Below are positions 1,948-50,993 of a stretch of 64,000 nucleotides of DNA, piece by piece; position 1 is the first letter of the stretch, and every line of letters starts with the position of its first letter. The stretch comes from Gluconacetobacter tumulisoli. Lineage in GTDB: Bacteria; Pseudomonadota; Alphaproteobacteria; Acetobacterales; Acetobacteraceae. The stretch lies in the NCBI RefSeq assembly GCF_014174155.1, contig NZ_JABEQM010000001.1, positions 1 to 64,000 on the forward strand, given 5' to 3'. Both the position numbers and the translations under genes were made by a program. A model generated the notes under the pieces. That model had not been told where the DNA came from and searched no databases. It saw only the letters and a program-made list of their open reading frames with translations.

Positions 1948-3237
1948 ATGATCGTGCCGTTTCTCGTCATTCTCTTTCTCGTCGTCCTCAATGGCGTGTT
2001 CGCCATGGGGGAACTGGCGCTGATTTCGGCGCGCCCCGCGCGCCTGGCCGTCCTGCAGCGCAAGGGAGTCAAGGGCGCCGAGCGGGCCCTGCGCCTGGCC
2101 GAGGATCCGCAGAGCTTCCTGCCCACGGTGCAGGTCGGCATCACCCTGGTTTCGATCCTGGAAGGAACCTTCGGCGGCACGCGGATCGAGGCGTACCTGA
2201 CGCCCTGGCTTGCCCGCTTCGCCCTGCTGCGCCCGTTCGCCGCCGAATTGTCGATGGCGGTGGTGGTCGTGGCGATCACCTCGCTGATGCTGGTGCTGGG
2301 CGAACTGGTGCCCAAGCAGCTTGCGCTGCGCCATCCCGAAACCATCGCGGCGCGCCTGTCCCTGCCGCTGGAAGGGCTGGCCCTGCTGACCCGTCCGGTG
2401 GTGTGGCTGCTGGGCCATTCCTCGGGGCTGGTGCTGCGCCTGATGGGCGTGGGCGCGACGACGCGCGAAGCCCTGACCGAAGAGGAACTGAAGGCCTATA
2501 TCGCCGAGGGCGCGCAGTCCGGCGTGCTGGAGCAGGAGGAGCGCAACATGATCGAGCGCCTGCTGCGCCTGGCCGACCGGCCGGTCCGCGCCATCATGAC
2601 CCCGCGTAACGAACTGTTCTGGATCGAGCGGCGGGCCAGCCGCGAGGAACTGCGCCGCATGCTGCGCACCACGGTCCATACCCGCATCGTGGTGTGCGAC
2701 GGCGGCGTCGACAACCCGGTCGGCGTCATCCTGGCCAAGGACATGCTGGACCGCATGCTGGATGGCAGGCCGGTGTCGATCGAATCGGGCCTGCGCAAGC
2801 CGGTGGTGGTGCCGGATACGATTTCCGCCTTCGACATGGTCGAGCGGATGCGGTCGGTTCCGCTGGGCATCGCGCTGGTGCTGGACGAGTACGGGTCGTT
2901 CGAGGGAATCGTCACCGCATCGGACCTGTTCGCCGCCATCGTCGGCGAGCATCACGAGCCCGGCAGCACGCCCAAGCGGCTGCTGGCGCAGGAAGACGTG
3001 CTGATCCTGGACGGGTTCATGCCCGCCGACGAGGTCAAGGACCGGCTGGGTCTGGCGGACCTGCCGCAGGAAGGCAGCTACCACACGCTGGGCGGCCTGA
3101 TCCTGGCGCTGCTGCGCCGGGTGCCCGCGGCCGGCGACAAGGTCGTGTTCTCGGGCTGGCTGTTCGAGGTGATGGAAACCGACCAGCGCCGCGTGGTGAA
3201 GGTGCGGGCCAGTCGCCAGATCCTGGCCGAAAATTGA
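1948..3237 (+). CDS. Hemolysin-family/CorC-type membrane protein with CNNM, CBS pair and CorC_HlyC domains
   Basis: A 429-residue inner-membrane protein. The first 200 residues form a DUF21/CNNM transmembrane domain, starting MIVPFLVILFLVVLNGVF and including the conserved LGELVPK region. A pair of CBS domains follows (about 205-335, including ILAKDMLD and LVLDEYGSFEGIVT), and then a C-terminal CorC_HlyC/transporter-associated domain (about 350-425). Relatives (YtfL, YoaE, CorB/CorC) are linked to divalent cation, mainly Mg2+, efflux, and the name hemolysin is historical. An AGGATCG sequence upstream suits the ATG at 1948. It is transcribed alone; repeat copy A begins within its stop codon. 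The exact substrate cannot be read from sequence. Confidence 0.88.
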   Translation: MIVPFLVILFLVVLNGVFAMGELALISARPARLAVLQRKGVKGAERALRLAEDPQSFLPTVQVGITLVSILEGTFGGTRIEAYLTPWLARFALLRPFAAELSMAVVVVAITSLMLVLGELVPKQLALRHPETIAARLSLPLEGLALLTRPVVWLLGHSSGLVLRLMGVGATTREALTEEELKAYIAEGAQSGVLEQEERNMIERLLRLADRPVRAIMTPRNELFWIERRASREELRRMLRTTVHTRIVVCDGGVDNPVGVILAKDMLDRMLDGRPVSIESGLRKPVVVPDTISAFDMVERMRSVPLGIALVLDEYGSFEGIVTASDLFAAIVGEHHEPGSTPKRLLAQEDVLILDGFMPADEVKDRLGLADLPQEGSYHTLGGLILALLRRVPAAGDKVVFSGWLFEVMETDQRRVVKVRASRQILAEN

Positions 3238-3400
3238 AAATCCGGCTGGAGACGCGGTTTGCCGGCGATCCGACGCGCTTTTCCTGTGCTTCGATGCTCA
3301 CGGCCATCAAGGCCGCTCCGCTTCGATGCTCGGAAAAACACGCCGGGCGCGCCGCGTTGTGGCGCTCTCGCTCGGCAAACCGCGTCTTCAGCCGGATTTT
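3237..3400. repeat. Intergenic palindromic element, copy A (reference copy)
   Basis: A 164-bp element with 27-bp inverted ends (3237-3263 and 3374-3400, one mismatch; outer sequence AAAATCCGGCTG). Inside is the core shared with other copies in this window: GGCGATCCGACGCG, TTTTCCTGTGCTTCGATGCTC, the hairpin CGGCCATCAAGGCCG (3301-3315), TTCGATGCTCGGAAAA, CACGCCGGGCGC, then GGCGCTCTCGCTCGG. It overlaps the stop codon of the upstream gene. It has no ORF, so it is a REP/MITE-like sequence or transcript-end structure. Element boundaries are set by the arms. Confidence 0.85.
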
Positions 3401-3436
3401 AGGTGGCCGCAGTGGCCCCGGCCGTCGACCAGAGGA

Positions 3437-5407
3437 TCAGTGCAGGGTCTGGAAATGATGTCCGGCCAGGTCGCGTTCGGCGGCGAAGGCGGGCCATTCC
3501 CCGCGGGCCAGGGTGTCCAGAGATGGGGTGGGCATGTCCAGCCGGTCGGCGTAGATCCACAGGTAGGTGAAGGCGCGGTGGACATAGTCCCGCGTTTCCC
3601 GGTTGGGCAGGCTCTCGATGAACAGCAGCGGGTCGTCGCCGCAATCGTTCAGGGCGTCCTGGCGCGAGATGGCGGTGGGGCCGGCATTGTAGCTGGCCAG
3701 CATGCGGACCATGTCGCCGCCCGGCGTCCGCCGGCCGGCGTCGTGCTGTTCGCTGAGATGCGCCAGGTAGAGGACGTAAAGCTGGCCGATTTCCAGGTTC
3801 AACGCCGGGTCGTGCAGCAGGGACGGGGCGGCGGCGTATTGCCGTGCGTTGCCGGTCACGAAGCCGGCGGTCACCGGCATGATCTGCATCAGCCCGTGCG
3901 CGCCGGATCCCGAGACCGCGCCGCTGTCGAAATTCGATTCCAGCCGCGTCAGCGCATAGACCAGCGCCGGATCGACCCGGAAGCCGTGGCTGGGCGTCAG
4001 GCGTGGCGTGGGGAAGCGGGCCTGCGTGGTCGGCGGGGTCGCGCCCCGCGCCAGCAGCAGGGCCGACAATTGGTCCGACAGGCCCTTCAGCCCGGCGGCA
4101 TCGGCCACCAGCTGGATCGAACGGCACAGCGCCGCGTCCCCCTGCACGTCGGGCCAGAGGCGGCGCAGGGCAGCCTCCGCCCGGCCGGTTTCGCCGACCT
4201 GCAGCAGGGCGAAGGCCCGGCGGCCCGCCGGGGTGGCCGCGACGGCCTCCACGTCGATTTCGCCCAGGACCGGCGTGCCGGCCACCAGCAGCGTCCGGTC
4301 GGCGGCCAGCGTCGGCCTGTCGGACAGGCGGGACTCCGTGGCAGGCCGGGCCGGACGCTGGCCCAGCATCTGGGCCGCCAGCAGGCCGTAGAAGGTGTGC
4401 GGGGCGGCGGCGGCGCGGTGGAGCCATGGGCGGAAGGCCGCGATGTCGCCGGTATTGCGGTGCGCCCGCGCGGCCCAGAAGGCGGCGCCGGCCCGGATGC
4501 TGGCCGGGGTCAGTTCGGCCCGCGACGCGGCCTCGAACAGGGATTCGGCGATATCGGGCCGCCCCCGCCGCCAGGCCGCGAGGCCGGCGACATAGCCAGC
4601 CAGGCCGATCCGGCCGCCGGACTGGGTGAAGGCATCCTGCCCGGTGCGCAGGGCGAAGGCGGTTTCCCCTGCGCTGAACATCGCCATCGCGACCTCGGCG
4701 CGCAACTGGGCCGCGTACAGGTCGTTCATGCCCGGGGTGATCTTGATCAGGTGCAGGGCGCTGCGCGCGCCCTTCAGACCTTGCTCGGCACGGTCGTGGA
4801 CCGTCCGGTCCAGCAGGGCGTTGCGGGTGAAGGCGCGGCTGGCCGGGTCGTCTTCCTCCGGCGCGCGACTGGGCGCCGCCTCGGCGCCGGCGGCCAGGGC
4901 CGCGGGGGCCGCCACGAGTGGCGGAACGCTGCCGCGGGGCGACAGGCTGACCAGCAGCGCATGGATCGCCGGGGCATCCGCCAGGGTGGAAAATGTCCGC
5001 AGCCACAGGCGCAGCTGGCTCGGCGTGGGATGATAGGCGGGGTTCAGGTATCGATCGGCCAGGATGTCGGCCAGCAGGGTATCGTCCGGCAGGGACGCGG
5101 TCTCGCGGATCGCGGCATCGAACGCCCCGGCGCGCTGCAGGCCGAAGATCCGGCGGACATGCAGGGCGACATCGGGGGGCAGCGGCTGGGCCAGCCCGAC
5201 CGCCCCGCCGCCCGGGGGGGCGATCCGTGGCATGGCCAGGGCCGTTTCCTCGTTTCGCTCGCCCGGGCCGGACGACCTTCCGTCCGGAGTCTGGGCGTTC
5301 GCGCTCTGGCCACGCAGCGGAACCATCGCTGCGCCTGCCAGAAAGGCGGCACCGGCCAGAAAGGCCCGAACCGCAAGCTGGGGGGGTATATGTGTTGTCC
5401 CTCGCAT
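3437..5407 (-). CDS. Soluble lytic murein transglycosylase (Slt family)
   Basis: A 656-residue periplasmic protein. It has an N-terminal signal sequence (AVRAFLAGAAFLAGAAM, likely cleavage after SANA near residue 37). A long alpha-helical superhelix like the U-domain of Slt70 follows, then a C-terminal SLT catalytic domain from about residue 480. The catalytic glutamate lies in ALTRLESNFD, followed by SGAHGLMQIMP and later LASYNAGPTA, the classic motifs. The enzyme cleaves the MurNAc-GlcNAc bond of peptidoglycan to form 1,6-anhydro ends during wall turnover. The protein is near the usual length for the family. No clear Shine-Dalgarno sequence precedes the first ATG. Confidence 0.93.
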   Translation of the reverse strand: MRGTTHIPPQLAVRAFLAGAAFLAGAAMVPLRGQSANAQTPDGRSSGPGERNEETALAMPRIAPPGGGAVGLAQPLPPDVALHVRRIFGLQRAGAFDAAIRETASLPDDTLLADILADRYLNPAYHPTPSQLRLWLRTFSTLADAPAIHALLVSLSPRGSVPPLVAAPAALAAGAEAAPSRAPEEDDPASRAFTRNALLDRTVHDRAEQGLKGARSALHLIKITPGMNDLYAAQLRAEVAMAMFSAGETAFALRTGQDAFTQSGGRIGLAGYVAGLAAWRRGRPDIAESLFEAASRAELTPASIRAGAAFWAARAHRNTGDIAAFRPWLHRAAAAPHTFYGLLAAQMLGQRPARPATESRLSDRPTLAADRTLLVAGTPVLGEIDVEAVAATPAGRRAFALLQVGETGRAEAALRRLWPDVQGDAALCRSIQLVADAAGLKGLSDQLSALLLARGATPPTTQARFPTPRLTPSHGFRVDPALVYALTRLESNFDSGAVSGSGAHGLMQIMPVTAGFVTGNARQYAAAPSLLHDPALNLEIGQLYVLYLAHLSEQHDAGRRTPGGDMVRMLASYNAGPTAISRQDALNDCGDDPLLFIESLPNRETRDYVHRAFTYLWIYADRLDMPTPSLDTLARGEWPAFAAERDLAGHHFQTLH

Positions 5408-5611
5408 GGCCGAGGGGCGTCTAAGGGGTTATCGGGGGAAACGCAACCCTTATGATGGTGCGGGCGGAAATATGCATGCAGAACAGTTGGGCAAACGGCA
5501 ATAAAAACGGCTGGTTAGCGTCGCGTTTCGGTGGTGAATAAATCGTGTGTTGCGGTGCAGTAGCCATAGTTTGAACACAGTTCGCATCGTGTTCGCTTCT
5601 TACTGTTTCCT

Positions 5612-6478
5612 TTACGTATCCTTGTCCGCATCCAGTGTTGCGCGCAGTAACAAAAGGTCCTTCCATGCGTCGCGCCGGGCGGTGGGGCTGGCCCCCAATT
5701 GGGACGGATGGCGCATCGGCAGGGCCGGCAGGGGTCGGGACAGACCGGGGATCGCGATGTCGCGCCAGCGCCCGCGCAACCGGGCGATTCCCCCCTGTTC
5801 ACCGGTCAGCAGCCTGGCCGGCATGTTGCCCATCAGGATCACCCGCCGGGGAGCGGCCAGCACGATCAGGCGATGCAGGAACGGTTCGCAGATCCGCAGT
5901 TCGGCGGCCGAGGGCGGACGCGCGCCCGGGGGACGCCATGGAATGACCGGGGCCAGCAGCAGATCCTCCCGCCGCAGGCCGATGCTGGCCAGCATGCGGT
6001 CCAGCATCTGTCCCGTCGGCCCGGCGAAGGGCGTGCCGCCCCGGTCCTCGGCCGCGTCGGGTGGCTCGCCGATCAGCATCAGGCCGGCATCGGCCCGGCC
6101 CGCAGGGGCAATGGTATGGGTGGCGGTCTCGCGCAGGGCGCAGCCGTCGAAGGCGGCCAGGGCGGTCTGCAGGTCGGCGATCGACGATGCAGCCTCTGCC
6201 ACCTGCCGGGCCCGCAGGACCGCGCGGTCGATCAGCGTCAGGCCGTCCTCCGGCCCGGACGGCCGGCGGGCTGGTGGGGACGGGGAGGGCGAATCCTGGC
6301 GCACGGGGGGACGGAGCGCCGGATCATGGGGGGCAGAAGCAAGGGGCGAGGGGGCCGTCGGAGGGACCGCGCGCGCGGACGGCGGCGGGGCGGCCAGGCG
6401 GTCGGTCGGATCGTCGTCCAGCGCGGCGTCCGCCCCCCAATCCACATAAAGGCGCAGCAGGGCGAGGGCATCCATCAT
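5612..6478 (-). CDS. Uracil-DNA glycosylase, family 4-like
   Basis: A 288-residue protein. After a disordered Pro/Ser-rich N-terminal 80 residues comes a family-4-like UDG core: GEPPDAAEDRGGTPFAGPTG (motif A), then PWRPPGARPPS, and the second active-site motif MRHPSQLG near the C-terminus. It excises uracil from DNA. Only two of the four cysteines that hold the 4Fe-4S cluster in classical family 4 enzymes are present (GCALR and RICEPF). The positions seen as CxxC and KCRPP elsewhere are Phe and Trp here. From memory, many alphaproteobacterial members look like this. The usual GEAPG motif reads GEPPD. Its start faces the TPR gene about 100 bases away. Confidence 0.88.
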   Translation of the reverse strand: MMDALALLRLYVDWGADAALDDDPTDRLAAPPPSARAVPPTAPSPLASAPHDPALRPPVRQDSPSPSPPARRPSGPEDGLTLIDRAVLRARQVAEAASSIADLQTALAAFDGCALRETATHTIAPAGRADAGLMLIGEPPDAAEDRGGTPFAGPTGQMLDRMLASIGLRREDLLLAPVIPWRPPGARPPSAAELRICEPFLHRLIVLAAPRRVILMGNMPARLLTGEQGGIARLRGRWRDIAIPGLSRPLPALPMRHPSQLGASPTARRDAWKDLLLLRATLDADKDT

Positions 6479-6580
6479 CCGGTCGGCGCGGCCTTGTCCA
6501 TTAACGGGGTGTGTCCGGTAGGCGGGGCGCCTGCCGGCAGGGTTTGGCAGTTTACCCGACGCGAGGTAGGGTCCGCCATC

Positions 6581-8380
6581 ATGCAGTGTTTCCGCGCCAT
6601 GTGCACGTCCGTGCTTGTCGTCGCCGTTTCAATGGCCGCCTGCCTGCCGGGTCATGGAGCCGGCGCGGCGCCGGTCGCGACGACCGGCGCCGCGGGTGCG
6701 GCAGGCGCCGAAGCGCCCGGTCTGGCGGGGGCGGTGCTGGTCGCGACCGTCGCGGCCCTGGAGGGCGACGACCGCACCGCCGGGCAGGCCTTTCGCGAGG
6801 CCTTCCGGCTGGATCCGACGCGGACGAGCCTGCTGCGCCAGGCGTTCCTGTACAGCGCCCTGGCTGGCGACGGCGCGGCCAGCCAACTCGCCCCGCGGCT
6901 GCCGGGGCAGCTCATGGCCGAGCTGGTGATGGGTGATGACGCGGCCCTGGCCGGCCGATGGAGCGACGCCCGGACCCATTACGGACGCGCGCCGCAGGAT
7001 GCGATGCTGGCCATGCTGAGGCCGTTGCTGGAGGCCTGGAGCCTGGCGGGCGAGGGGCAGGTCGACGGGGCGCTCTCCGTCCTGGCCCCCTGGACCGATA
7101 CCCGTGCGGCAGGGGAAGGTGGCCTGGGCGGCTATTACGCGATTCACGCCGCCCTGATCGCGGAGGCGGCGGGGCAGCGGCAGCGTGCCGACGGGCTTTA
7201 TCGCATCGCCCTGGCCCTGTCGTCGGGGCATGATGTCTTCACGACCTGGGCCCTGGGCCACTGGCTGGTCGGGCAGGGACGCCGGGACGAGGCCGTACGG
7301 ATGGCCGACAGCCTGGTGATCGCCGTGCCGGGCCTGGCCCTGGCGCGCGACGGTATCGTGGCGTCGTTCGCGCGCCCGCCGGTGACGACACCGCGGCAGG
7401 GGCTGGCGCAGGCTTATGTCTTCCTGTCCGCGCTGATCGGCCAGCAGGCCGCGCGCCTGGCCGATCCCGGGGGACGACCGTCCCATGACGAGGGGCTTCG
7501 CGATATCCAGATGCTGCTGCTGCGGTTCGCGCTGGCGCTGGATCCCGGCTTCGGACAGGGACGCCTGATGTTGTCGTCGCTGCAGTTCGATGCCGGGCAG
7601 GCGGCCCTGGCCCGCGACACGATCGGCCAGGCGGCCGCCGGCGATCCGCTTTCGACCGTCATCCGGCTGCAGCAGGCGCGGCTGGACGTTGCGACCGGCC
7701 AGTGGGCCGATGCGCGGCAGATCCTGACCGGCCTGGCGCGCGAACATCCCGACCAGCCGCTGATCTGGCAGATGCTGGGCAATCTGTATTCCGGCCGGCA
7801 GGACTGGGATGCCGCGATTGCGGCGTTCGACCGGGCGGTCGCCGTTTCGGGCCATCTGGCCGGTGAGGGCTGGTCGCTGCTGTTCGACCGGGCCGTCGCC
7901 TATGACCGGTCGGGCCGCTGGCCGCAGGCCCAGGCTGACCTTCAGCATGCGCTGGATCTGGCGCCCGACGAGGCGATGTTGCTGAATTATCTTGGTTATT
8001 CATGGGTCGAACGGGACCAGGACCTGCCGAAGGCCGAGGCGCTGCTGCGTCGGGCGGTGGCGATCGCGCCCGACGACGCCGCGATTCGCGACAGCCTGGG
8101 CTGGGCGCTGGTGCGGCAGGGGCGCGTCGCCGACGGGCTGCGGCTGCTGGAACGCGCCGCCGAGCAGACGCCCGAGGATCCGGCGGTGAATTATCATCTG
8201 GGGGTCGCGTACTGGCGGTCCGGCCGCCCGCGCGAGGCGGTCAACCAGTGGCACATGGCGGAATTGCTGCCCGCCGAGGCATCTGATGCGCAAAAGATCC
8301 GTGCCGCCCTTGCCGATGCCGCCCGATCCGGCCACGAAGACGCGCCGCCCGGCCCGCAGAGCGGCCAGAAGAAGGACTGA
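6581..8380 (+). CDS. Exported TPR-repeat protein
   Basis: 599 residues. The ATG at 6581 gives a signal sequence (MCTSVLVVAVSMAACLPGHG, which could be read as a lipobox MAAC). Tetratricopeptide repeats run through the rest, clearest from about residue 330 to the end (NYLGYSWVERDQDLPKAEAL, then DSLGWALVRQG and NYHLGVAYWRSG). Such proteins are scaffolds in the periplasm or on the outer membrane, and BcsC/PilF/YfgC-like helpers have the same make-up. No catalytic domain is seen. The stop is 8 bases before ispE, so the two are probably cotranscribed, although their functions need not be linked. The open frame extends far upstream of 6581, but that part is antisense to the glycosylase gene. Confidence 0.8.
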   Translation: MQCFRAMCTSVLVVAVSMAACLPGHGAGAAPVATTGAAGAAGAEAPGLAGAVLVATVAALEGDDRTAGQAFREAFRLDPTRTSLLRQAFLYSALAGDGAASQLAPRLPGQLMAELVMGDDAALAGRWSDARTHYGRAPQDAMLAMLRPLLEAWSLAGEGQVDGALSVLAPWTDTRAAGEGGLGGYYAIHAALIAEAAGQRQRADGLYRIALALSSGHDVFTTWALGHWLVGQGRRDEAVRMADSLVIAVPGLALARDGIVASFARPPVTTPRQGLAQAYVFLSALIGQQAARLADPGGRPSHDEGLRDIQMLLLRFALALDPGFGQGRLMLSSLQFDAGQAALARDTIGQAAAGDPLSTVIRLQQARLDVATGQWADARQILTGLAREHPDQPLIWQMLGNLYSGRQDWDAAIAAFDRAVAVSGHLAGEGWSLLFDRAVAYDRSGRWPQAQADLQHALDLAPDEAMLLNYLGYSWVERDQDLPKAEALLRRAVAIAPDDAAIRDSLGWALVRQGRVADGLRLLERAAEQTPEDPAVNYHLGVAYWRSGRPREAVNQWHMAELLPAEASDAQKIRAALADAARSGHEDAPPGPQSGQKKD

Positions 8381-8388
8381 CCATCGTC

Positions 8389-9324
8389 GTGACCGCGATC
8401 CTGCATGACTCCGCCCATGCGAAAATCAACCTGTATCTGCATGTGACGGGGCGGCGTCCGGATGGCTACCATCTGCTGGACAGCCTGGCGGTCTTCGCAG
8501 GGGCGGCGGACCGGCTGGCCGTGCATCCCGCCGAGGGCGCCCCGGGGGCGGTGACGCTGGAGATCACGGGGCCGTTCGGCGCCGGGCTGGTGGCCGAATC
8601 GGACAGCAACCTGATCCTGCGGGCCGCCCGCCTGCTGCGCGCAGCCGCCACTGCGGATGTGCCTGACCGTCTGCCACCGCTGCGGATCGTGCTGGACAAG
8701 CGGCTTCCGGTCGCCTCGGGGATCGGCGGCGGGTCGGCGGACGCGGCGGCGGCATTGCGCCTGCTGTTGCGCGCATGGCCCGACCTGCGGGTGCCGCGCG
8801 ACCGGTTGATGGTCCTGGCGGCGGAACTGGGCGCGGACGTGCCGGTCTGCGTCGAGCAGGCTGCCGCCCGGATGGGTGGCGTCGGCGATGTGCTGGACCC
8901 CGCGCCGGAGCTGCCCGCCTGCGGCATGATGCTGGTCAATTGCGGCGAGGCGGTTCCGACCCCGTCGGTCTTCCGGTCGCGCGCGGCGGTCTTCCACCCG
9001 CCTGCCGCCCTGTCGGCCGGATGGGCGGACGTGGGCGCGATGGTGCGGGACCTGTCGGCCCTGACGAACGACCTGGAGGACGCGGCCTGCGCCATCTGTC
9101 CCGCGATTCGCACGGTGTTGCAGGTCCTGGCGGCCGCGCCGGGCTGCCGGCTGGCGCGGATGAGCGGGTCCGGCGCGACCTGCTTCGCCCTGTTCGACAG
9201 CGCGCAGGCGGCACGCGACGCGTGCGTCGCGGTCGAGCGACCCGGCTGGTGGGTCTGGGCCGGGGGCCTGCACGGCGAGGAACGTAGCGCGCAGACAGGT
9301 GGTACGGTCGGCCGGGCGGTATGA
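8389..9324 (+). CDS. ispE: 4-diphosphocytidyl-2-C-methyl-D-erythritol kinase
   Basis: A 311-residue GHMP kinase of the MEP pathway. It phosphorylates the 2-hydroxyl of CDP-methylerythritol with ATP in the cytoplasm. The family signature starts AKINLYLHV (catalytic Lys12) with RPDGYHLLDS. The ATP-binding glycine loop is PVASGIGGGSADAAAA, with the catalytic aspartate in GSAD, and the C-terminal motif MSGSGATCFALF closes the site. The start is GTG at 8389, eight bases after the TPR gene. With dxs and hpnH nearby it strengthens an isoprenoid/hopanoid theme in this stretch. Confidence 0.95.
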   Translation: MTAILHDSAHAKINLYLHVTGRRPDGYHLLDSLAVFAGAADRLAVHPAEGAPGAVTLEITGPFGAGLVAESDSNLILRAARLLRAAATADVPDRLPPLRIVLDKRLPVASGIGGGSADAAAALRLLLRAWPDLRVPRDRLMVLAAELGADVPVCVEQAAARMGGVGDVLDPAPELPACGMMLVNCGEAVPTPSVFRSRAAVFHPPAALSAGWADVGAMVRDLSALTNDLEDAACAICPAIRTVLQVLAAAPGCRLARMSGSGATCFALFDSAQAARDACVAVERPGWWVWAGGLHGEERSAQTGGTVGRAV

Positions 9325-9385
9325 TAAGTTCGTCCTGACGTCGCGCGCCGACGTCCGCAGTACGAGGACGGAAAGGCCCAATCGC

Positions 9386-9778: not shown

Positions 9779-9867
9779 CCGTCCCATCTTCCGGCGGCCC
9801 GGGAACGAGGACCGTCGATATCCTTTTTCACGGTCCGGGCAGGGAACGACGCGGGGAACGACATGGC

Positions 9868-10755: not shown

Positions 10756-10777
10756 TATCGATCGTCATGGCGGCGCG

Positions 10778-10852
10778 CTGCCCCGCAGGGGCAGTCGCAA
10801 AAAACCGGGGTCAAGGACGCCGGGCGCCCTTGTGGGTTCTGGCAAAGCCCGA
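10778..10852. repeat. Hairpin plus a second-family intergenic repeat
   Basis: The first part is a 7-bp hairpin CTGCCCC-GCA-GGGGCAG (10778-10794) that may end the beta-lactamase transcript. From 10804 it has CGGGGTCAAGG, then CCCTTGTGGGTTCTGGCAAAG and CCCGA. The second block matches 38789-38812 at 21 of 24 bases, so this is a recurring intergenic motif distinct from the copy A family. Confidence 0.6.
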
Positions 10853-18369: not shown

Positions 18370-18777
18370 ATGATCGAGGATGTAACGCCCACCACGGCCT
18401 GGGCGGCGCTGGACGCCCGGCCGCAGGCACAGCTGGTCGATGTCCGCACGGACGCCGAATGGATGTTCGTCGGGCTGCCGGACCTGTCGGCCACGGGCAA
18501 GCGGGTTCTGCCGATCTCGTGGCAGGGTCTGAACGGCCAGCCCAATCCCCGATTCGTGGAGCAACTCTCGGCTGCCGGCCTGACGCCGGAGAGCGAGATC
18601 TATTTCATCTGCCGGTCGGGCGCGCGCAGCCATTCCGCCGCCATCGCGGCACGGCAGGCGGGATTCGGGCATGTCTTCAACGTTGCCGGCGGGTTCGAGG
18701 GGCCGCCCGACGCACAGAGCCATCGCGGCGCGCTTGCCGGGTGGAAGGCCGAAGGCCTCCCCTGGCGCCAAGGCTGA
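18370..18777 (+). CDS. Rhodanese-like sulfurtransferase
   Basis: A 135-residue single-domain rhodanese. The active-site cysteine is Cys81 in CRSGARS, and LVDVRTDAEW near residue 22 is the conserved structural motif. It moves sulfane sulfur from a donor such as thiosulfate to an acceptor thiol in the cytoplasm. Three in-frame ATGs are possible (18343, 18358, 18370). The last matches the usual MIEDVTP-type start of the family and has a weak GGGA upstream. It is divergent from cysteine synthase, with about 110 bases between them, suggesting common control. Its stop codon overlaps repeat copy B. Confidence 0.85.
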   Translation: MIEDVTPTTAWAALDARPQAQLVDVRTDAEWMFVGLPDLSATGKRVLPISWQGLNGQPNPRFVEQLSAAGLTPESEIYFICRSGARSHSAAIAARQAGFGHVFNVAGGFEGPPDAQSHRGALAGWKAEGLPWRQG

Positions 18778-18956
18778 GAGGCTGTTCGAAACGCAGTCGG
18801 CCGGCGATTCGCCGCGCGTTTCCTGTGCTTCGAGGCGGGGCGGCCATCAAGGCCGCCCCGCCTCGATGCCCGGAAAATCACACCAGCTGTGCTATGTAGT
18901 ACGTAGTACGCATAGTACGCACTCTCGCCTGGCCGGCCGCGTTTCAGGCAACCTCT
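18777..18956. repeat. Intergenic palindromic element, copy B
   Basis: A 180-bp element directly at the rhodanese stop. The end arms AGAGGCTGTTCGAAACGC and GCGTTTCAGGCAACCTCT pair at 14 of 18 positions. The core matches copy A: GGCGATTCGCCGCG, TTTCCTGTGCTTCGA, CGGCCATCAAGGCCG, CCTCGATGCCCGGAAAA and CACACC. It holds an extra block with TAGTACG three times (from 18897, 18904 and 18913). Confidence 0.8.
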
Positions 18957-18979
18957 GACGGGCGCGACGCCTCGCCCCG

Positions 18980-21255: not shown

Positions 21256-21284
21256 TCTCCCGGGACGCAGCGCGTCCCGGGAGA
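21256..21284 (+). terminator. Strong hairpin after the aldo/keto reductase
   Basis: Perfect 13-bp stem (21256-21268 with 21272-21284; arms TCTCCCGGGACGC and GCGTCCCGGGAGA) with a 3-base loop. No T run follows, so termination may be Rho-assisted or the hairpin may protect the mRNA end. Confidence 0.65.
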
Positions 21285-21445
21285 CTGGTGTAAAAACTCT
21301 GTCGAGTGAGAGTGCCGCGTAGCGGCACGGCCTGGCGTGAGTCCGGCGTGATTTTTTGAGCATCGGAGCGGCCTTGATGGCCGTGGGTACTGACCCGCAG
21401 AAAAAGTGCGTCGGATTGCCGACAACAGGACGAATTTTATGCCAG
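21285..21445. repeat. Intergenic palindromic element, copy C (reverse orientation)
   Basis: On the minus strand it reads GGCAATCCGACGCAC, then ACGGCCATCAAGGCCGCTCC, GATGCTCAAAAAATCACGCC and a CACTCTCACTCG end, following copy A in order. The ends CTGGTGTAAAA (21285) and TTTTATGCCAG (to 21445) are near-complementary and differ from the arms of the other copies. Confidence 0.8.
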
Positions 21446-21449
21446 GCTG

Positions 21450-36888: not shown

Positions 36889-37261
36889 GTCTGTCGTCCC
36901 GCGTCATGTCCGCGATCGGCTGGCGGCCCATCCCGTTAGAGCCTGTCTGCAAATGTAGGCCAGCGAGCGAGAGCGGAACGCAGGGAAGCGCCCGGCGCAT
37001 GTTTTCGAGCACCGAAGCGGAAAGGGATGCGTCGGGTCGCCGACAGCGCGCATTTGCAGACAGGCTCCTAGGCGACGCGGCCGGATGTGTAAATGCGGCT
37101 GGCCACGGGGCAGATATTCGATTTCGTCCCGTCATGGCCGGCCGGGACCCGTTACGGTCGGGCAGGCGGTCGCATTGACCGCCTGCCGGTGGCTCCCCAT
37201 TATTTCAACAAGGGCGTGCGTCCGGGCGGGGCGCGGGACGTCATGAAAAGGTGAAGGCAGG
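36889..37261. other. Intergenic region holding repeat copy D
   Basis: About 370 bases between the leftward antiporter gene and the rightward chaperone operon, so it should contain both promoters. Apart from repeat D (annotated separately) I see no ORF or terminator. Confidence 0.5.
36937..37070. repeat. Intergenic palindromic element, copy D (reverse orientation)
   Basis: Perfect 17-bp inverted ends, GAGCCTGTCTGCAAATG (36939-36955) and its complement (37051-37067). On the minus strand the core reads GTCGGCGACCCGACGCAT, CGCTTCGGTGCTCGAAAACA, GCGCCGGGCGC and CCGCTCTCGCTCGC, matching copy A but lacking the CGGCCATCAAGGCCG hairpin. This is the only copy lying between two gene starts. Confidence 0.85.
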
Positions 37262-37420: not shown

Positions 37421-38334
37421 GCAATGATCCATACGAGATCCTGGGCCTGTCGCGCACGGCCAGCCAGGACGACATCCGCAAGGCCTATCGCAAGCTGGCC
37501 AAGACCCATCACCCGGACCTGAACCCGGGCGACAAGGTGTCGGAAGAGAAGTTCAAGGCCATCAGCAGCGCGCATACCCTGCTGTCCGATCCCGAGCAGC
37601 GGGCGCGCTTCGACCGGGGCGAGATCGACGCCACGGGGCAGGAACGCGGCTGGGCGCCCGGCGGGGGCGGCTATCGCGACCATGCCGAGGGCGCGCAGGG
37701 TTTCCGTTATTCCGCCGGCCATTTTTCCGAGGACGACCTGGGCGACGTCTTCGGCAGCATGTTCGGCCAGCAGCGGGGCTTCCGCCGCCGTCCGCAGGGG
37801 CCGGCGCGCGGCGAGGATCGCAGCTATTCCCTGACCGTCAGCTTTGCCGACGCGGTGAATGGTGGCACGTCGCGCATCACCCTGCCCGGGGGCGCCACCC
37901 TGGACGTGAAGATCCCGCCCGGGATCGAGGACGGCCAGGTGCTGCGCCTGCGCGGCAAGGGCGGCGAGGGGCATCAGGGCGGCCCCGCGGGTGACGCCCT
38001 GATCACGATCGGCGTCGCGCCGGACCCGGATTATACCCGTGACGGGAACGATATCCGCCTGACGCTGCCCGTCGGGCTGAAGACCGCCGTGCTGGGCGGC
38101 CCCGTCACGGTGCCGACGCCGGGCGGCCCGGTCTCGATGAACGTGCCGGCCCATTCGGACAGCGGACGGGTCATGCGCCTGCGCGGCCGGGGCGTGAAGG
38201 CGCATGGCGGGCGGGAGGCCGGCAATCTCTACGTCACTCTGAAGGTCGTGATCGGCCCGACCGACGAGGCGCTGGAAACATTCCTGAAATCCTGGACGCC
38301 GCCCGGCGGGGCGGGCGGGGAGGCGGCATCATGA
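37417..38334 (+). CDS. cbpA: DnaJ-type co-chaperone, CbpA-like
   Basis: 305 residues. J-domain at 1-70 with the HPD motif (32-34) that stimulates DnaK ATPase, then a Gly/Phe-rich linker, then two C-terminal substrate-binding domains (VSFADAVNGGTSRITLPGG and later). The zinc-finger domain of DnaJ is absent, as in CbpA. Starts with GTG at 37417, overlapping the stop of the 52-residue ORF. The following gene encodes a CbpM-like modulator, which supports CbpA over DnaJ. Confidence 0.92.
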   Translation: MSNDPYEILGLSRTASQDDIRKAYRKLAKTHHPDLNPGDKVSEEKFKAISSAHTLLSDPEQRARFDRGEIDATGQERGWAPGGGGYRDHAEGAQGFRYSAGHFSEDDLGDVFGSMFGQQRGFRRRPQGPARGEDRSYSLTVSFADAVNGGTSRITLPGGATLDVKIPPGIEDGQVLRLRGKGGEGHQGGPAGDALITIGVAPDPDYTRDGNDIRLTLPVGLKTAVLGGPVTVPTPGGPVSMNVPAHSDSGRVMRLRGRGVKAHGGREAGNLYVTLKVVIGPTDEALETFLKSWTPPGGAGGEAAS

Positions 38335-38666
38335 TGACAATCGAGACATTGTGCGTCCGCGTGGGCAACGTGACGGTCGCGGACATCGAGCGCTGGATCG
38401 ACAGCGACTGGCTGCGGCCCGAGGGCGCGCCCGGCGCCTATGCGTTCCAGGACATCGACGCGGCCCGCGCGCGCCTGATCGCCGAGCTGCGCTCCGACCT
38501 CGGTGTCAGCGACGAGGGCATGCCCCTGGTGCTGTCGCTGCTGGACCAGCTGTATGACGCGCGGCGGCAGATGATGCGCCTGCGCGATGCGCTGGAAACG
38601 CCCCAGGCCGACGATATCCGCGCGCGGGTGCGCAGCCTGCTGGCCGACCTGCCGTCCCGCCCCTGA
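38331..38666 (+). CDS. cbpM: CbpM-like chaperone modulator
   Basis: 111 residues, MerR-like. The N-terminal half (VRVGNVTVADIERWIDSDWL) resembles the MerR helix-turn-helix region, and the C-terminal half (LLDQLYDARRQMMRLRDAL) is a coiled coil. CbpM binds the J-domain of CbpA and blocks its action with DnaK. The start overlaps the cbpA stop (ATGA), the usual arrangement for this pair. A partial intergenic repeat follows directly after the stop. Confidence 0.88.
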   Translation: MMTIETLCVRVGNVTVADIERWIDSDWLRPEGAPGAYAFQDIDAARARLIAELRSDLGVSDEGMPLVLSLLDQLYDARRQMMRLRDALETPQADDIRARVRSLLADLPSRP

Positions 38667-38730
38667 AAAACCGTTTCAAAAGCGGGTCCGCCGACGGTCC
38701 CACCTATGTTTCCCGTGCTTCGGCGCTCGG
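38667..38730. repeat. Intergenic palindromic element, partial copy F
   Basis: Directly after the cbpM stop. GCCGACGGTCCCACCTATG, then TTTCCCGTGCTTCGGCGCTCGG follows the first half of the copy A core. The rest of the core and the closing arm are missing, and a different repeat follows. Confidence 0.55.
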
Positions 38731-40587: not shown

Positions 40588-40588
40588 G

Positions 40589-43203: not shown

Positions 43204-44352
43204 ATGCGCCTGATTCACACGTCCGACTGGCAGATCGGCAAGGTGTTCCGCTTTGCCGATGACGAGGTCCTTCCGGTCCTGCAGCAGGAACGGCTGGAAG
43301 CCATCGGCCGGATCGGCCGTCTGGCCCGAGCCCAGGGGGCGTCGGCCGTGCTGGTGGCCGGGGACGTCTATGACCATCTGCGCCCGGCGGAACGGACGCT
43401 GCGCCAGCCGATCGAGCGGATGCGGCAGTTTCCCGACCTGCGCTGGCACCTGATTCCGGGCAATCACGATTTTCACGAACCCGACGGCCTGTGGGACAGG
43501 CTGCTGGGGATGGGGCTGCCGGACAATGTGGTGGCGCACCTGACCCCCGAACCGGCCCCGCTGGACGCGGCGGGCGACGCCTGGGTGGTGCCCGCCGGGC
43601 TGGGACGCCGCCACCTCATCGGCGATCCCACCGCCGCGATGGATGCCGCCCCGACGCCCGAGGGCGCGATCCGGGTCGGGCTGGCGCACGGTTCGGTCCG
43701 GACCTTCGGCAGCGACGACGCGACGGCGCGCAACGTGATCGCCCTGGAGCGGGCGCGCACGGCGGACCTGGGCTATCTTGCATTGGGCGACTGGCATGGC
43801 GCCCTGCGGATCGATGCCCGGACGTGGTATTCCGGCACGCCCGAAATCGACGGATTCGACCTGGGGGGCGCGGGCGGCGGGCAGGCCCTGCTGGTATCGC
43901 TGGACGGGCCGCGTGCCGAACCGGTGGTCACCGTTCATGATACGGGGCGGTTCCGCTGGGCGCGGGACCAGGCGGTCCTGACCTCGGCCGAGGACGTGCG
44001 GGGGCTGGAGGCGCGGTTGCGCGGGATCGACCGCGACGATCCCAGCCGGGTGCTGGTCCGGCTGGCCGTCAGCGGGGCGCTGACGCTGACGGACCTTGAA
44101 CTGTACCAGGCGCAGGTCGTGGCGGGCCTGGGGTCCGCCCTGCGGCTGCTGCGCATCGACGGCGCGCCGGACCTGGCGACGTCGCCCGACGATCTGGACG
44201 GCTTCGGGATGGCGGGGGCCGTGCGGGCGGCGGCCGAATCGCTTGTGGCGCAGGCGGGTGCCGGGGATGCCCAGACGCGCGACGTCGCGACCGCCGCCTT
44301 GCAACGCCTGCATCTGCTGGCCCGCGACGTGCGGGCGGGGGGCGGCGCATGA
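43204..44352 (+). CDS. SbcD/Mre11-like metallophosphoesterase nuclease
   Basis: A 382-residue predicted DNA repair exonuclease. Phosphoesterase motifs: HTSDWQIG at the start (where classical SbcD has DWHLG), AGDVYD, PGNHDFHE, and GDWHG. The C-terminal third is the helical capping region that contacts the ATPase. It would trim or cleave DNA ends with two Mn2+ ions as the partner of the large SMC-like ATPase encoded next, whose ATG overlaps its stop. The Gln in place of the first metal-ligand His also occurs, from memory, in a proteobacterial YhaO-like branch. Confidence 0.88.
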   Translation: MRLIHTSDWQIGKVFRFADDEVLPVLQQERLEAIGRIGRLARAQGASAVLVAGDVYDHLRPAERTLRQPIERMRQFPDLRWHLIPGNHDFHEPDGLWDRLLGMGLPDNVVAHLTPEPAPLDAAGDAWVVPAGLGRRHLIGDPTAAMDAAPTPEGAIRVGLAHGSVRTFGSDDATARNVIALERARTADLGYLALGDWHGALRIDARTWYSGTPEIDGFDLGGAGGGQALLVSLDGPRAEPVVTVHDTGRFRWARDQAVLTSAEDVRGLEARLRGIDRDDPSRVLVRLAVSGALTLTDLELYQAQVVAGLGSALRLLRIDGAPDLATSPDDLDGFGMAGAVRAAAESLVAQAGAGDAQTRDVATAALQRLHLLARDVRAGGGA

Positions 44353-47084: not shown

Positions 47085-47108
47085 TATATTGTTTTAAAAC
47101 AATATATT
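47083..47108. terminator. Perfect AT-rich palindrome at the end of the yhaN-like gene
   Basis: A perfect 26-bp palindrome made of AATATATTGTTTT (47083-47095) and its complement (47096-47108), followed by TTTC. It overlaps the TAA stop. Most likely a transcription end or an operator for the porin promoter downstream. Confidence 0.55.
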
Positions 47109-47327
47109 TTCACTTGGACAACGGCGGACGTTCCCTGTGGGCCGCTCGGAATTTGTAATCAATCTTCTTTCGTATCCCGGTAATGAAAATGTTATACGCC
47201 TTCGCCCGAGGCCGACGCCCCGGCAGATGCCGTGCCGGACAATCAGGAACGGATCGCGCGCAGACGTGATGACACCCCGACGGCCTGGATGGCCGTTACC
47301 GGGGGACAAGGGATAAGTTGGAACTGA

Positions 47328-48818
47328 ATGAGTCGACGAGTGCATGGGACGGCGCTCCTGCTGTCCGCATCCTGCCTGCTGCTGCCTGCCGGTCCCACCC
47401 GCGCGCAATCCGTTCCGGCGCCCGCCGTCGGACGTGTCGGGGGGTATGCCGGCCGCGTGCCCGCGCGCACCGTGACGCCGGCGCCCGCGCCGGCGACGGG
47501 TGCCGATCATTACGTTCCGCCGCCCACCCTGGCGGGGTATTTCCCCGACAGCTACCAGAGCTGGATTCGCGGCAGCACCATGACGGGGGACTGGGGCGGG
47601 CTGCGCACCCACCTGGAAAACCGGGGCGTGCATTTTCAGGGCCATTACCTCGAGGACGCGTCCGGAAACCCGGTCGGCGGCAAATATGCCGGCGTGCGCT
47701 ATGCCCATGAATTCGCCCTGGGCGCGGATATCGATTTCGCCCGGCTGATCCACCACGATATCGGCACGCTGCATATCCTGCTGACGGAGCGCGCGGGCCT
47801 CAGCCTTGCCAACGGGCCGCTGGGCGGCGCGGTGGATTCCGTGCAGCAGATCTTCGGCTCGGGCGAGACGGTGCGCCTGACGCGGCTGTCGCTGGAGAAG
47901 AATTTCAACCGCTACGTGTCCATGGAGGCCGGCTGGATCAACACCGAAAACGATTTCGGCCAGTCCACCCAGCATTGGGGCCTGTCGCTCTATTGCCAGT
48001 TCCAGACCAATGCGATCTGCGGCATGCCGCAGGGCCTGGCGATGAATGGCGGCTATGGCTGGTATCCGACGGCCCATCCCGGCGCGTGGCTGAAGCTGTA
48101 TCCGGCCGGGAACGACCATTACCTCGTCTCGGCGGGGATCTATAACGTCGATAACACCATTTCGAACACGCATAACGGGTTCAAGCTGGGGCTGAACAAC
48201 ACGACGGGCGTCTACCTGCCGTTCCAGCTCGGCTGGCACCACGGCAACGATTACGATGGCGATCTGGAAGGCAATATCCGGATCGGCGGCTACTGGGACA
48301 CGTCCGAGGTCGCGATCGTGTCGTCCCGGACCGCGGCCTACCAGCCGGTCGGCGTCGCCATGATCGACCTGCCCGACAACCAGATCCGCGGACGTTTCGG
48401 CGGATGGGTCGAAGCCGATCAGATGATCCAGCGCGACCATGCCGGCAGCGGGCGCGGCACGGTCATTTTCGGTTCGTTCATCTGGGGCGATCCGCGCACC
48501 GCCCTGACGCCGTATTTCGCGACCTGGGGCATCATCCGCAAGGGCACGTTCGCCAACCGTCCGAACGACACGATCAGCTTCGGCGGCAAGATGGCCGTGC
48601 TGAATCCGAAGCTGGGGGAATATGCAGCGACCCTGCAGCAGGCGGGTGAAAAGGCGCTGCGCCCGTCGAACGAACCGGGGATCGAACTGAATTATGGCTG
48701 GCGGCCGACGCCATGGGCGACGCTGCGGCCGGGGCTGCAATATCTGTGGCATCCGGGCGGTACCAACCGCTACCCCAACGCCCTGATCATCGACATGGAA
48801 ACCGGCCTGACATTCTGA
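47328..48818 (+). CDS. OprB-family carbohydrate-selective porin
   Basis: 496 residues. Signal sequence (LLLSASCLLLPAGPTRAQ) and a Pro/Ala linker are followed by the OprB domain: TMTGDWGGLRTHLENRGVHF at about 83, then FVNTEN-like GWINTENDFG, and a C-terminus LIIDMETGLTF ending in Phe, as expected for an outer-membrane beta-barrel. It allows glucose and related sugars through the outer membrane; acetic acid bacteria use such porins to feed periplasmic dehydrogenases. The upstream 240 bases are unusually AT-rich and hold the promoter. It appears monocistronic. Confidence 0.9.
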   Translation: MSRRVHGTALLLSASCLLLPAGPTRAQSVPAPAVGRVGGYAGRVPARTVTPAPAPATGADHYVPPPTLAGYFPDSYQSWIRGSTMTGDWGGLRTHLENRGVHFQGHYLEDASGNPVGGKYAGVRYAHEFALGADIDFARLIHHDIGTLHILLTERAGLSLANGPLGGAVDSVQQIFGSGETVRLTRLSLEKNFNRYVSMEAGWINTENDFGQSTQHWGLSLYCQFQTNAICGMPQGLAMNGGYGWYPTAHPGAWLKLYPAGNDHYLVSAGIYNVDNTISNTHNGFKLGLNNTTGVYLPFQLGWHHGNDYDGDLEGNIRIGGYWDTSEVAIVSSRTAAYQPVGVAMIDLPDNQIRGRFGGWVEADQMIQRDHAGSGRGTVIFGSFIWGDPRTALTPYFATWGIIRKGTFANRPNDTISFGGKMAVLNPKLGEYAATLQQAGEKALRPSNEPGIELNYGWRPTPWATLRPGLQYLWHPGGTNRYPNALIIDMETGLTF

Positions 48819-48889
48819 TCGGCGGGCATCCCCTGCCGGGGCGTCCAAATTCATTGACGGCGGGGCCGGCGGCGGGAAACATGCGCCCC

Positions 48890-49438
48890 ATGTCACGACT
48901 GGATCATACAAGACCCTTCCTGCCGGTCCGCATCGCGGTGCTGACCGTTTCCGACACCCGGGTGATGGCGACGGATACCTCCGGCGCCCTCCTGGCCGAA
49001 CGGATCGTGGCCGCCGGCCACCATCTGGCCGACCGTGTCATCGAACCGGACGATGCGGATCGTATCGCGGCGCGCCTGGCGGGCTGGATCGCCGATCCGG
49101 CCATCGACGCGGTGATTTCCACCGGCGGCACCGGTGTGACCGGCCGCGACGTAACGCCGGAGGCGTTCGATCGCGTGATCGAGAAGCGGATCGAGGGCTT
49201 CGGCGAATTGTTTCGCATCCTGTCGTACCAGAAGATCGGCACCTCGACGATTCAGTCCCGGGCGCTGGCGGGTGTCGCCAACGGCACCTACCTGTTCGCG
49301 CTGCCCGGTTCGTCGGGCGCGGTAAAGGACGGATGGGACGACATCCTGGTCTGGCAATTGGACAGCCGGCACATGCCCTGCAACTTCGTGGAACTGATGC
49401 CGCGCCTGCGCGAACATCTGGACCCCACCCATGACTGA
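48890..49438 (+). CDS. moaB: Molybdenum cofactor biosynthesis protein MoaB/MogA family
   Basis: 182 residues, MoCF-binding domain. Motifs: VLTVSDTR near residue 17, [19 protein letters not shown], and [19 protein letters not shown] near the C-terminus. It adenylates molybdopterin before molybdate insertion, or is a MoaB paralogue of less certain role. Two starts are possible (48881 and 48890). The following PfpI gene starts 16 bases after its stop, so they probably form an operon. Confidence 0.9.
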
Positions 49439-49454
49439 ACGGAGCAAGGTGGCG

Positions 49455-50030
49455 ATGAGCGTGAAGAAGCTGCTGCTGCTGGCCGGCGACTATGTCGAGG
49501 ATTATGAAATCATGGTGCCGTACCAGGCGCTGTCGATGCTCGGGTACCAGGTCGATGCGGTCTGCCCGGGCAAGAAGGCGGGGGAGTACGTCCTGACCGC
49601 GATCCATGATTTCGAGGGCGCGCAGACCTATAGCGAAAAACCCGGACACCGCTTTACCCTGACGGCGGATTTCGCCGCGGTGAACGAGGCGGAATATGCC
49701 GGCCTGGTGATCCCCGGCGGCCGTGCGCCGGAATATCTGCGCCTGGACCCGCAGGTGATCGCCCTGGTGCGTGCCTTCGCCGACCGGCCGATCGCCGCGA
49801 TCTGCCATGCCGGGCAGCTTCTGGCCGCCGCCCGGATCATCGAGGGGCGCACGGTGTCCGCCTATCCGGCCTGCCGGCCGGAGGTCGAGCTTGCCGGCGG
49901 GATCTATGCCGACATCGCGGTGGACGACTCGGTGACGGACGGCCTGCTGGTCACGGCGCCCGCCTGGCCGGCCCATCCGCGCTGGCTGGCCCAGTTCGTC
50001 GCGGCGCTGGGCGCCCGGATTTCCATCTGA
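49455..50030 (+). CDS. DJ-1/PfpI-family protein
   Basis: 191 residues from the ATG at 49455, with AAGGTGG just upstream. An earlier in-frame ATG at 49431 lies inside the moaB end without a ribosome binding site. The class I amidotransferase-like fold shows [13 protein letters not shown] and the nucleophile elbow [13 protein letters not shown] with its cysteine. It may act as a glyoxalase III, deglycase or chaperone; the sequence cannot decide. Repeat copy E begins right after its stop codon. Confidence 0.88.
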
Positions 50031-50130
50031 AAAACTGATTTGAAATGCGCGCTTTTAAATGCGCGCGGGCGGCGATCCGACCCGTGTTTCCTGCGCTCCG
50101 CATCGGCGCTCGCACGCACATGCCGGACGT
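50031..50130. repeat. Intergenic palindromic element, partial copy E
   Basis: Starts at the PfpI stop. AAATGCGCGC occurs twice (about 50043 and 50057), then GGCGGCGATCCGACCC, GTGTTTCCTGCGCTCCGCAT and CGGCGCTCGCACGC follow the first half of the copy A core. No closing arm is seen. Confidence 0.6.
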
Positions 50131-50231
50131 GACATTGGCATCCGCGGAGAGGTGTGCATCATGAGGGACCGGGCGTCCGGTGCGTGCGACAAGCACGTGC
50201 CCGCGCCTGCTGTCATGGGGAGTCTTCCGTT

Positions 50232-50864
50232 TTGCGCACCACCCGTCATATCCTCGCCCGTTCCGCGCTGGCCGTCGCCATCGCGTCGGGCGGCATCGTC
50301 GCCCTGGCCGCCCCGCAGACGGCGGTGTTCGCCGCCGCCCCGCCGTCGCCCACGACGCCGCTGAAGCTGAAATCGCTGACGATCACCGGCAACCAGCAGG
50401 TCTCGACCGCCGACATCCTGGCCGCCGTGCCGTTCCACGAGGGCGATACCGTCACCCGGAACCAGATCGACGCCGGTGCCCAGGATGTCATGGCGGTCTA
50501 CCAGAAGAAGAATGTCGGCCTGAAATTCGGCGAGAAACTGAAATTCCTCGGCAACGCCGTCCAGGTCCAGTGGATCATCGAGGAGCAGGCTCCGCAGGCC
50601 GCGGCCCCGGCGGCGGCGCTGGTGGTCGACCAGATCGTGTTCCAGGGGAACAAGCAGATTTCGTCCGATGCGCTGACGGCGGCGACCAAGCTGCGTCCGG
50701 GTTCGCCGGTCGACCAGGACGCGGTGATGGCCGACCAGAAGGCCGTCCAGGCGGTGTACCAGAAGAAGAACATCGGCGTCGCGATCCAGGTGGTGCCCAG
50801 CCAGCCGAACCACGACAACCATGTCATCCTGACCTATCAGATCACCGAGAAATCGGGCGACTGA
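50232..50864 (+). CDS. Exported protein made of two POTRA-like repeats
   Basis: 210 residues. The start is TTG at 50232, because GGGGAG lies nine bases upstream and translation from it gives a typical signal sequence (ALAVAIASGGIVALAAP). The mature protein has two similar domains: LKSLTITGNQQVSTADILAA...VYQKKNVGLKF and VVDQIVFQGNKQISSDALTA...VYQKKNIGVAI, the POTRA pattern of BamA/FhaC/ShlB. There is no beta-barrel after them. It may be a soluble periplasmic partner for outer-membrane assembly, or a stand-alone binding protein. Codon use is normal for the genome. Confidence 0.75.
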   Translation: MRTTRHILARSALAVAIASGGIVALAAPQTAVFAAAPPSPTTPLKLKSLTITGNQQVSTADILAAVPFHEGDTVTRNQIDAGAQDVMAVYQKKNVGLKFGEKLKFLGNAVQVQWIIEEQAPQAAAPAAALVVDQIVFQGNKQISSDALTAATKLRPGSPVDQDAVMADQKAVQAVYQKKNIGVAIQVVPSQPNHDNHVILTYQITEKSGD

Positions 50865-50932
50865 TCCGGCCATGGCGGCGCGGAGCCCGCGCCGCCATGC
50901 GGGCGTACGACGCAGGCGGGGGGCCTCAGGGA

Positions 50933-50993
50933 GAGGCTTGAAATACGGCCCCTGGAGCGAGAGAGCTGCGCAGCAGGGCGTATTTCAAGCCGT
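50933..50993. repeat. Intergenic palindromic element, short copy G
   Basis: A 61-bp version: perfect 13-bp arms GGCTTGAAATACG (50935-50947) and CGTATTTCAAGCC (50979-50991) enclose GGAGCGAGAGAGCTGCGCAG, the end module of copy A (there read on the other strand). The core hairpin is absent. It lies between the convergent POTRA and folE genes, so it may end both transcripts. Confidence 0.7.

Follow-up and report, generated by a model that had tools for sequence, protein, structure and literature searches.

A probable family of miniature transposable elements in Gluconacetobacter with arms that pair within each copy and an oriented position at stop codons

Short palindromic elements that recur in a 64,000-nucleotide stretch of the Gluconacetobacter tumulisoli genome (contig NZ_JABEQM010000001.1; the whole stretch is referred to here as the window) are best read as copies of a miniature inverted-repeat transposable element (MITE) that has ends of 23 bp and target duplications of 3 bp. 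A full copy, about 160 bp long and without a transposase gene, has a core of roughly 116 nt enclosed by terminal inverted repeats of 23 bp each. We take the copies to represent a new MITE family of Gluconacetobacter with two unusual properties, namely concerted arms that bear no sign of RNA selection, and a position at stop codons in one orientation. No published description of the family turned up in the literature searched, most subscription journals lying outside that search. The account as a whole, in which an IS5-type transposase moves the MITE, template switching homogenizes its arms and copies are retained at stop codons in one orientation, is in our judgment probably correct, with appreciable room for doubt.

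In the reference orientation the element opens with a 23-nt left arm and closes with a 23-nt right arm; between them lie an inner stem, in which GGCGGCGA pairs with TCGC-T-CGCC, then a long hairpin and then a small one (GTGCCGC-TTCG-CGGCAC). A first-pass annotation, made from the letters of the window alone, had described seven places that share a core and bear completely different arms. When read and folded, all seven were found to contain the element, in varying states of preservation, but most arms are diverged versions of one 23-nt consensus, which for the left arm is GAGCCTGnCnGGAAATGCGCGCT. Single-sequence folding predicts very strong folds for the window copies. The three-way junction that such single-copy folds suggest is our interpretation of them; the automatic consensus fold that underlies the core model used below has the long hairpin and lacks the junction.

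The number of copies in the G. tumulisoli genome (G000, 3.96 Mb) is far above chance. At least 57 BLAST matches to copy 3238..3399 were obtained there (40 of 115 candidates scored), and the genome-wide covariance search that the first-pass annotation had proposed, carried out with a core-only model of 116 positions from which the arms were excluded (R1), returned, with 150 scored among 5498 candidates, at least 76 matches at E ≤ 0.1, or at least about 73 distinct places once three second-strand repeats are subtracted. At this threshold R1 recovers five of the seven window places, those at 38667 and 50933 not being among the matches. Across 100 genomes, with at most 37 candidates scored in each, a match at E ≤ 0.01 is present in 24 (G. 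tumulisoli included), which comprise every one of the 14 genomes of the genus, taken to be Gluconacetobacter, and 10 others. An exact 26-base core pattern found 66 stretches in named genomes, all of them in Gluconacetobacter and spread over nine species, a sample in which old cores are under-represented because the stretches were picked by that exact pattern. A search of plasmid records with the reference copy gave zero matches at E ≤ 1e-5. The fetched loci yielded 165 unique full-length copies, among which the few from other genera (L074 to L081) were pooled with the rest; these are relatives with different inner arms, several of which end in GCTACTG-type letters. At least five tandem arrays, each with its copies in the same orientation, are present in the G. 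tumulisoli genome (G000:C8:164568-164875, C25:12134-12455, C2:383460-383857, C2:404248-404564 and C11:16116-16481).

Comparison of filled and empty sites suggests that the elements have moved. In G008, at 43381 and 43544, the sequence TTTTC-TGA-TCC of the empty sites in G006 and G010 has become TTTTC-TGA-copy-TGA-copy-TGA-TCC, a comparison judged by eye because the gap is misplaced in the alignment. Locus L135 has TGA on both sides of its copy and a single TGA in the empty site of G011, locus L284 has TTA on both sides, and copy 18778..18955 of the window lies between TGA 18775-18777 (the stop codon) and TGA 18956-18958, a 3-bp duplication. Equal 3-bp flanks occur in 20 of 118 copies, against a mean of 10.3 when flanks are swapped between copies (p 0.0005), and in 7 of the 71 copies whose left flank is not TGA, against a swapped mean of 1.24 (p 0.0005), two of these seven being one site in two near-identical genomes. 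The insertion target looks like C-TNA-G: a C precedes the stop in 42 of the 52 copies placed exactly at a stop codon, compared with 291 of 531 genes, and of 118 copies 82 have a T after the right arm and 68 a G at +4.

Transposases matching PF13340 are present in 13 of the 14 genomes of the genus, with 25 matches in G004 and 33 in G012, far above the others. Insertion sequence (IS) copies in G001 and G013 have the ends GAGACTGTTTGGAAAATC, GAGTCCGTTTGAGAATG and GAGCCCTTTTGGAAATTC, with duplications of TTA, TAA and TCA (L270, L288 and L271, respectively), and the best element arm agrees with these three ends at 15, 16 and 15 of 17 bases, where the background maxima over 1485 17-mers are 10, 11 and 10. 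The 16-base agreement links an IS end of G001 to the right arm of L081, a copy from another genus. The proteins of L270 and L288 belong to the IS5 family by NCBIfam and contain DDE_Tnp_1 and DUF4096 by Pfam; transposase-family matches for L270, L288 and L278 are NF033580, PF01609 and PF13340. Characteristic IS1031 ends and a TNA target are known for the IS1031-like group, and the three-nucleotide, TNA-type duplications at L270, L288 and L271 fit such a target; these elements are candidate members of the IS1031 group. Members of that group are described as having a single open reading frame (ORF) and three-nucleotide targets (PMC2516522). By these sequence likenesses the arms would be the terminal repeats of a MITE, and we infer that an IS5-type transposase of the genus moves it. 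Similar ends exist on IS5-type elements of other genomes in the genus, whereas those of the IS copies found in the G. tumulisoli genome differ.

The second conspicuous property of the family is its position relative to genes, which were called with a home-made codon model that misses genes. The neighboring genes run with the element in 77 of the 165 copies, converge in 52, run in tandem against it in 17 and diverge in 1; a further 14 copies overlap a called gene, and 4 are without a neighbor on one side. The intergenic location noted at first pass therefore extends beyond the window, the core being rare within genes (14 of 165). Divergent gaps make up 93 of 369 background gaps of at least 30 bp, in contrast to the single copy among 165. 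In 104 of the 165 copies a coding frame terminates between -9 and +3 relative to the left arm; the corresponding number for the right arm is 5. In the window, copies 3238, 18778, 38667 and 50031 begin directly after a stop. The frame ends exactly at the left arm in 52 copies, 47 of them with TGA, and in some cases the opening bases of the arm complete the stop. Counted by site (n = 106), frames end at the left arm only in 66, the right only in 4, both in 1 and neither in 35. An earlier way of calling genes had placed frame ends at 97 left and 4 right arms, and the stops (74 TGA, 15 TAA, 8 TAG) were similar to background.

How much of this placement reflects the target itself can be gauged from the C-TNA-G context, which occurs at 45 of 531 stops, compared with 50 such sites in non-divergent gaps. 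Since these numbers are comparable, much of the placement is explained by target choice combined with the removal of insertions that do harm. Orientation is left unexplained by target choice because both the target and the arms are palindromic. Moreover, the left flanks of the 20 copies that have an arm score of at least 10 and no coding frame at either arm include TCA besides TGA, which indicates that the orientation bias goes with the gene and not with the triplet. Either insertion reads the direction of the gene, or copies that face the wrong way are removed. Inverted repeats in bacteria are described as generally peaking 50-80 bp past stop codons (PMC13155455), while the present elements touch the stop. 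The position and orientation of the copies make a link to 3'-end function likely, and the pairing data discussed below neither support nor contradict a 3'-end role. A stronger proposal, which we consider possible but doubtful, is that the element is an oriented 3'-end module across the genus, in which selection on the core keeps the orientation and template switching rewrites both arms in step, without selection on base pairing. If this were true, then many genes would carry a private, self-matching hairpin of which the structure is inherited and the sequence is not.

Pairing of the two arms within a copy is real and is accompanied by strong covariation. An arm score of at least 15 is reached by the own arms of 92 of the 165 copies, but by only 1.6% of combinations of a left arm with another copy's right arm, and the pairing reported for the window therefore extends to arms outside it. 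Among the 118 copies with an arm score of at least 11, positions 8-23 are Watson-Crick paired in 1589 of 1665 cells. Position 16 has all four pair types (29 CG, 24 AT, 23 TA and 16 GC of 104), and a T.C recurs at position 12.

Covariation in repeated hairpins is usually read as selected RNA structure. On that explanation, which the first-pass annotation had raised for transcript ends, the palindrome would be a structured RNA at mRNA 3' ends, a terminator or stabilizer, and the covariation would be compensatory evolution on the transcript. The placement at stop codons, the strong orientation bias, the avoidance of divergent gaps and the very strong predicted folds all fit it, as do hairpins that have lost the core and retain paired arms (window 50935-50991; G001 9244-9300, a deletion product because core letters are retained inside the hairpin). 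A constraint on the transcript should, however, favor G-U over A-C mismatches, and no such excess was found. With one copy per site (85 sites, the T.C at position 12 excluded), the outer arms contain 1124 Watson-Crick pairs, 16 G-U, 22 A-C and 4 others (p 0.42 for G-U vs. A-C), and copies between tandem genes have 6 G-U and 12 A-C. The long core stem has 63 G-U and 76 A-C, the fixed T-G column 9-87 being excluded, and the inner stem has 24 and 66, which become 23 and 27 once column 3-114 is excluded; these stem counts are drawn from related copies and hence are not independent. That G-U is no commoner than A-C argues against RNA selection. Nor do the copies have the form of an intrinsic terminator, a hairpin followed by a T run: only 23 of 118 copies have TTTT close to where the right arm ends, 22 have the mirror-image A run at the left, and the window copies have no Rfam match at gathering thresholds. 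Selection on RNA structure thus appears an improbable source of the paired arms, although placement and orientation leave room for a 3'-end role.

Orthologous sites provide a more direct view of how the arms change. Of 58 orthologous pairs, 34 represent the same element (core identity of at least 85%, arm difference of at most 5), and these reduce to 17 disjoint pairs; one orthology cluster of 22 arose from tandem neighbors, 21 copies were excluded from both the pair and the G-U/A-C counts, and the by-site counts treat that cluster as one. The 17 pairs contain 14 double changes that keep the pairing and 16 that are one-sided; 25 of their 544 cells are mismatched, and the next 64 nt beside the arms in orthologous pairs are 84.0% identical. 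Within-pair permutation leads one to expect 3.25 double changes (p ≤ 0.0001, a value that is optimistic because the pair filter, an arm score of at least 9, favors double changes). A set of 24 disjoint pairs chosen without the filter has 48 double and 33 one-sided changes, but some of the double changes there stem from a site that holds different elements. G005 and G008, which are 98% identical around the first window site, have the same arms there and an inverted core, with the inner arm letters included in the inversion and a small internal difference. Arm homogenization and spacer inversion have both been reported for template switching between inverted repeats (PMC8604942, PMC8794818), and the paired double changes and the core inversion match these reported products. 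The other possibility raised at first pass, a nonautonomous mobile element whose arms are homogenized, gains support from these changes together with the similar IS5 ends, the 3-bp duplications and the filled and empty sites. The candidate inversions listed are mostly tandem neighbors or repeats of one site, and two were aligned; L142 vs. L154 was rejected as a core inversion because it aligned as a different element. Growth of the palindrome into its flanks was also considered, but there was only a slight excess, 3 of 118 copies having complementary runs of at least 7 where 0.12 are expected.

Sites also turn over. The first window site holds the same element in G000, G002 and G009, elements with related arms in G006, G003, G005 and G008, a different element in G001, and none in G004, G012, G011, G013 and G007; in G010 about 1.5 kb of other DNA stands there, and no element was found in it. 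In such longer DNA at the element sites of other species the ORFs were inspected, and one of them may encode a transposase. At L119 a new element lies at the stop codon, ahead of an older one, and L169, in which four pairs are broken, resembles a hybrid between two alleles. These observations bear on a further explanation, in which subfamilies are matched to different transposases, both ends of a copy track one protein, and differing arms at a site reflect replacement of the whole copy. The IS ends of the genus are indeed diverse yet of the same type, copies at one site can be different elements, as the new copy at L119 illustrates, and the tandem arrays permit exchange of the kind that L169 resembles. 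Against this, the 14 paired double changes occur between orthologous copies with the same core, the G. tumulisoli genome has dozens of copies but four PF13340 matches, and the verified core inversion requires exchange between arms. Matching to different transposases is consequently unlikely to be what keeps the arms paired. It is very improbable that the core was inserted into the loops of existing host hairpins whose stems became the copy-specific arms, even though in L142 and L159 vs. L069 another species has a short hairpin that shares the outer arm, and 3 of 118 copies have complementary runs of at least 7 bases outside the arms (0.12 expected), given that the arms are fixed at 23 nt with a common consensus resembling IS ends, that the empty sites for window copy 3238, L115, L135 and G008 43381 lack a hairpin by eye, and that G001 9244-9300 retains core letters and so derives from deletion. 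Insertion into terminator loops was considered as well, and set aside.

The reading that we favor, a MITE with template-switched arms, can be set out as follows. An IS5-type transposase of the genus would move the MITE in trans, and the arms would drift after insertion. Template switching during replication within the palindrome would then copy one arm onto the other and at times invert the core, and each copy would thereby become a private self-complementary palindrome. Insertions may survive where they are least harmful, above all at stop codons, where the stop would be kept or supplied by a duplicated TGA or by the bases with which the arm begins. One orientation might then be retained at stops through a putative 3'-end effect of the core.

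Several observations weigh against this reading. The 3-bp flanks are unequal in 98 of 118 copies, and the duplication is not clean at L115 (TGA and TCC), at G008 62337 (TCA and TGT) or, in comparison with its empty site, at window copy 3238..3399, because TGA stands at its left and TAG at its right; the empty counterpart of L284 is TTC. Two further IS types, of five, match the element arms at only 13 and 11 of 17 bases, with background maxima of 12 and 10, and no transposon with element-like ends was found among the PF13340 copies of the G. tumulisoli genome, the ends being unlike those of the element at all four places. G002 carries copies of the element, but the PF13340 search there gave none at E ≤ 1e-8. 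Besides the optimism of the permutation value noted above, one-sided arm changes are as frequent as double ones at short distances, and a single core inversion has been verified. Inner arm positions 4 and 6 have a fixed mismatch in most copies, which simple homogenization should erase; snap-back priming on the inner arm, with copying of the outer arm, would spare these mismatches. Finally, the orientation bias is the least explained feature of the family.

Among known systems, MITEs of the IS5 family, in particular of the IS1031-like group, are alike in being short, noncoding and multicopy, with terminal inverted repeats, 3-bp duplications and transposons of the genus with similar ends; the present family differs in arms that diverge between copies yet pair within them, and in its oriented placement at stop codons. 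ERIC and RUP are intergenic, palindromic and once mobile, with other sizes, ends and targets. These and other small repeats are named in PMC10969869. The same source describes QMITE2 of Coxiella burnetii as having 23-29 bp repeats around a core of 113-145 bp and a transcript that is predicted to be strongly folded, a size plan similar to that found here, though QMITE2 has duplications of 7-9 bp instead of 3 bp (PMC10969869). REP elements of the GTAG type are described as palindromic, extragenic and present in many copies, with ends that often supply the stop TAG of the flanking ORF (PMC3733652). They are 20-40 bp and GTAG-tagged (PMC3733652), whereas the Gluconacetobacter element is about 160 bp, has no GTAG tag and makes 3-bp duplications; its arm consensus begins with GAG or AAA, so that neither the GTAG nor the CGTC tag of REP/REPIN sequences is present. 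Template switching of inverted repeats has in common with the present family arm homogenization, double changes that look compensatory, and inversion of the spacer or loop, but is known from yeast coding repeats with short spacers and from rRNA and microRNA stems (PMC8604942, PMC8794818), while here it would act in a family of mobile elements whose 23-bp arms enclose about 116 nt of core.

For the interpretation of covariation, the family seems to be a counter-case, in which strong covariation is accompanied by strand-symmetric mismatches, arm changes in step and inversion of the core in place, which points to a process at the DNA level. With dozens of copies per species and many sequenced species, it also constitutes a natural data set for the self-repair of palindromes.

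The seven places in the window, which range from complete copies to remnants, are collected in the table.

Table. Copies and remnants of the element in the window, with their state and immediate surroundings
State	Positions	Strand	Arms, core and flanks
Complete copy, reference orientation	3238..3399	+	Arms 3238-3260 and 3377-3399, pairing well; core 3261-3376; stop codon TGA 3235-3237 at left, TAG 3400-3402 at right
Complete copy, small hairpin enlarged	18778..18955	+	Arms pair well
Complete copy, arms decayed	21278..21446	-	Core 21301-21423 (minus strand); arm score 1.0
Core-shortened copy, arms well paired	36939..37067	-	Flanks TTA 36936-36938 and CTA 37068-37070
Left-end fragment	38667..38726	+	Directly 3' of the stop codon of open frame 38331-38666; no R1 match
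Left-end fragment	50031..50150	+	Directly 3' of the stop codon of open frame 49431-50030; R1 match 50068-50150, E 0.001
Remnant: perfect outer arms and part of the small-hairpin region, remaining core gone	50935..50991	-	No R1 match

The enlargement of the small hairpin in copy 18778..18955 lies at 18885-18925 and consists of TAGTACG-type repeats that do not occur in the other aligned copies. A strong perfect hairpin, TCTCCCGGGACGC-AGC-GCGTCCCGGGAGA, adjoins the minus-strand copy 21278..21446 at 21256-21284, its GGGAGA overlapping the start of the element arm. The sole Rfam matches in the window at the gathering threshold are a SAM_alpha riboswitch at 53539-53618 on the minus strand and a tRNA at 53764-53834 on the plus strand.

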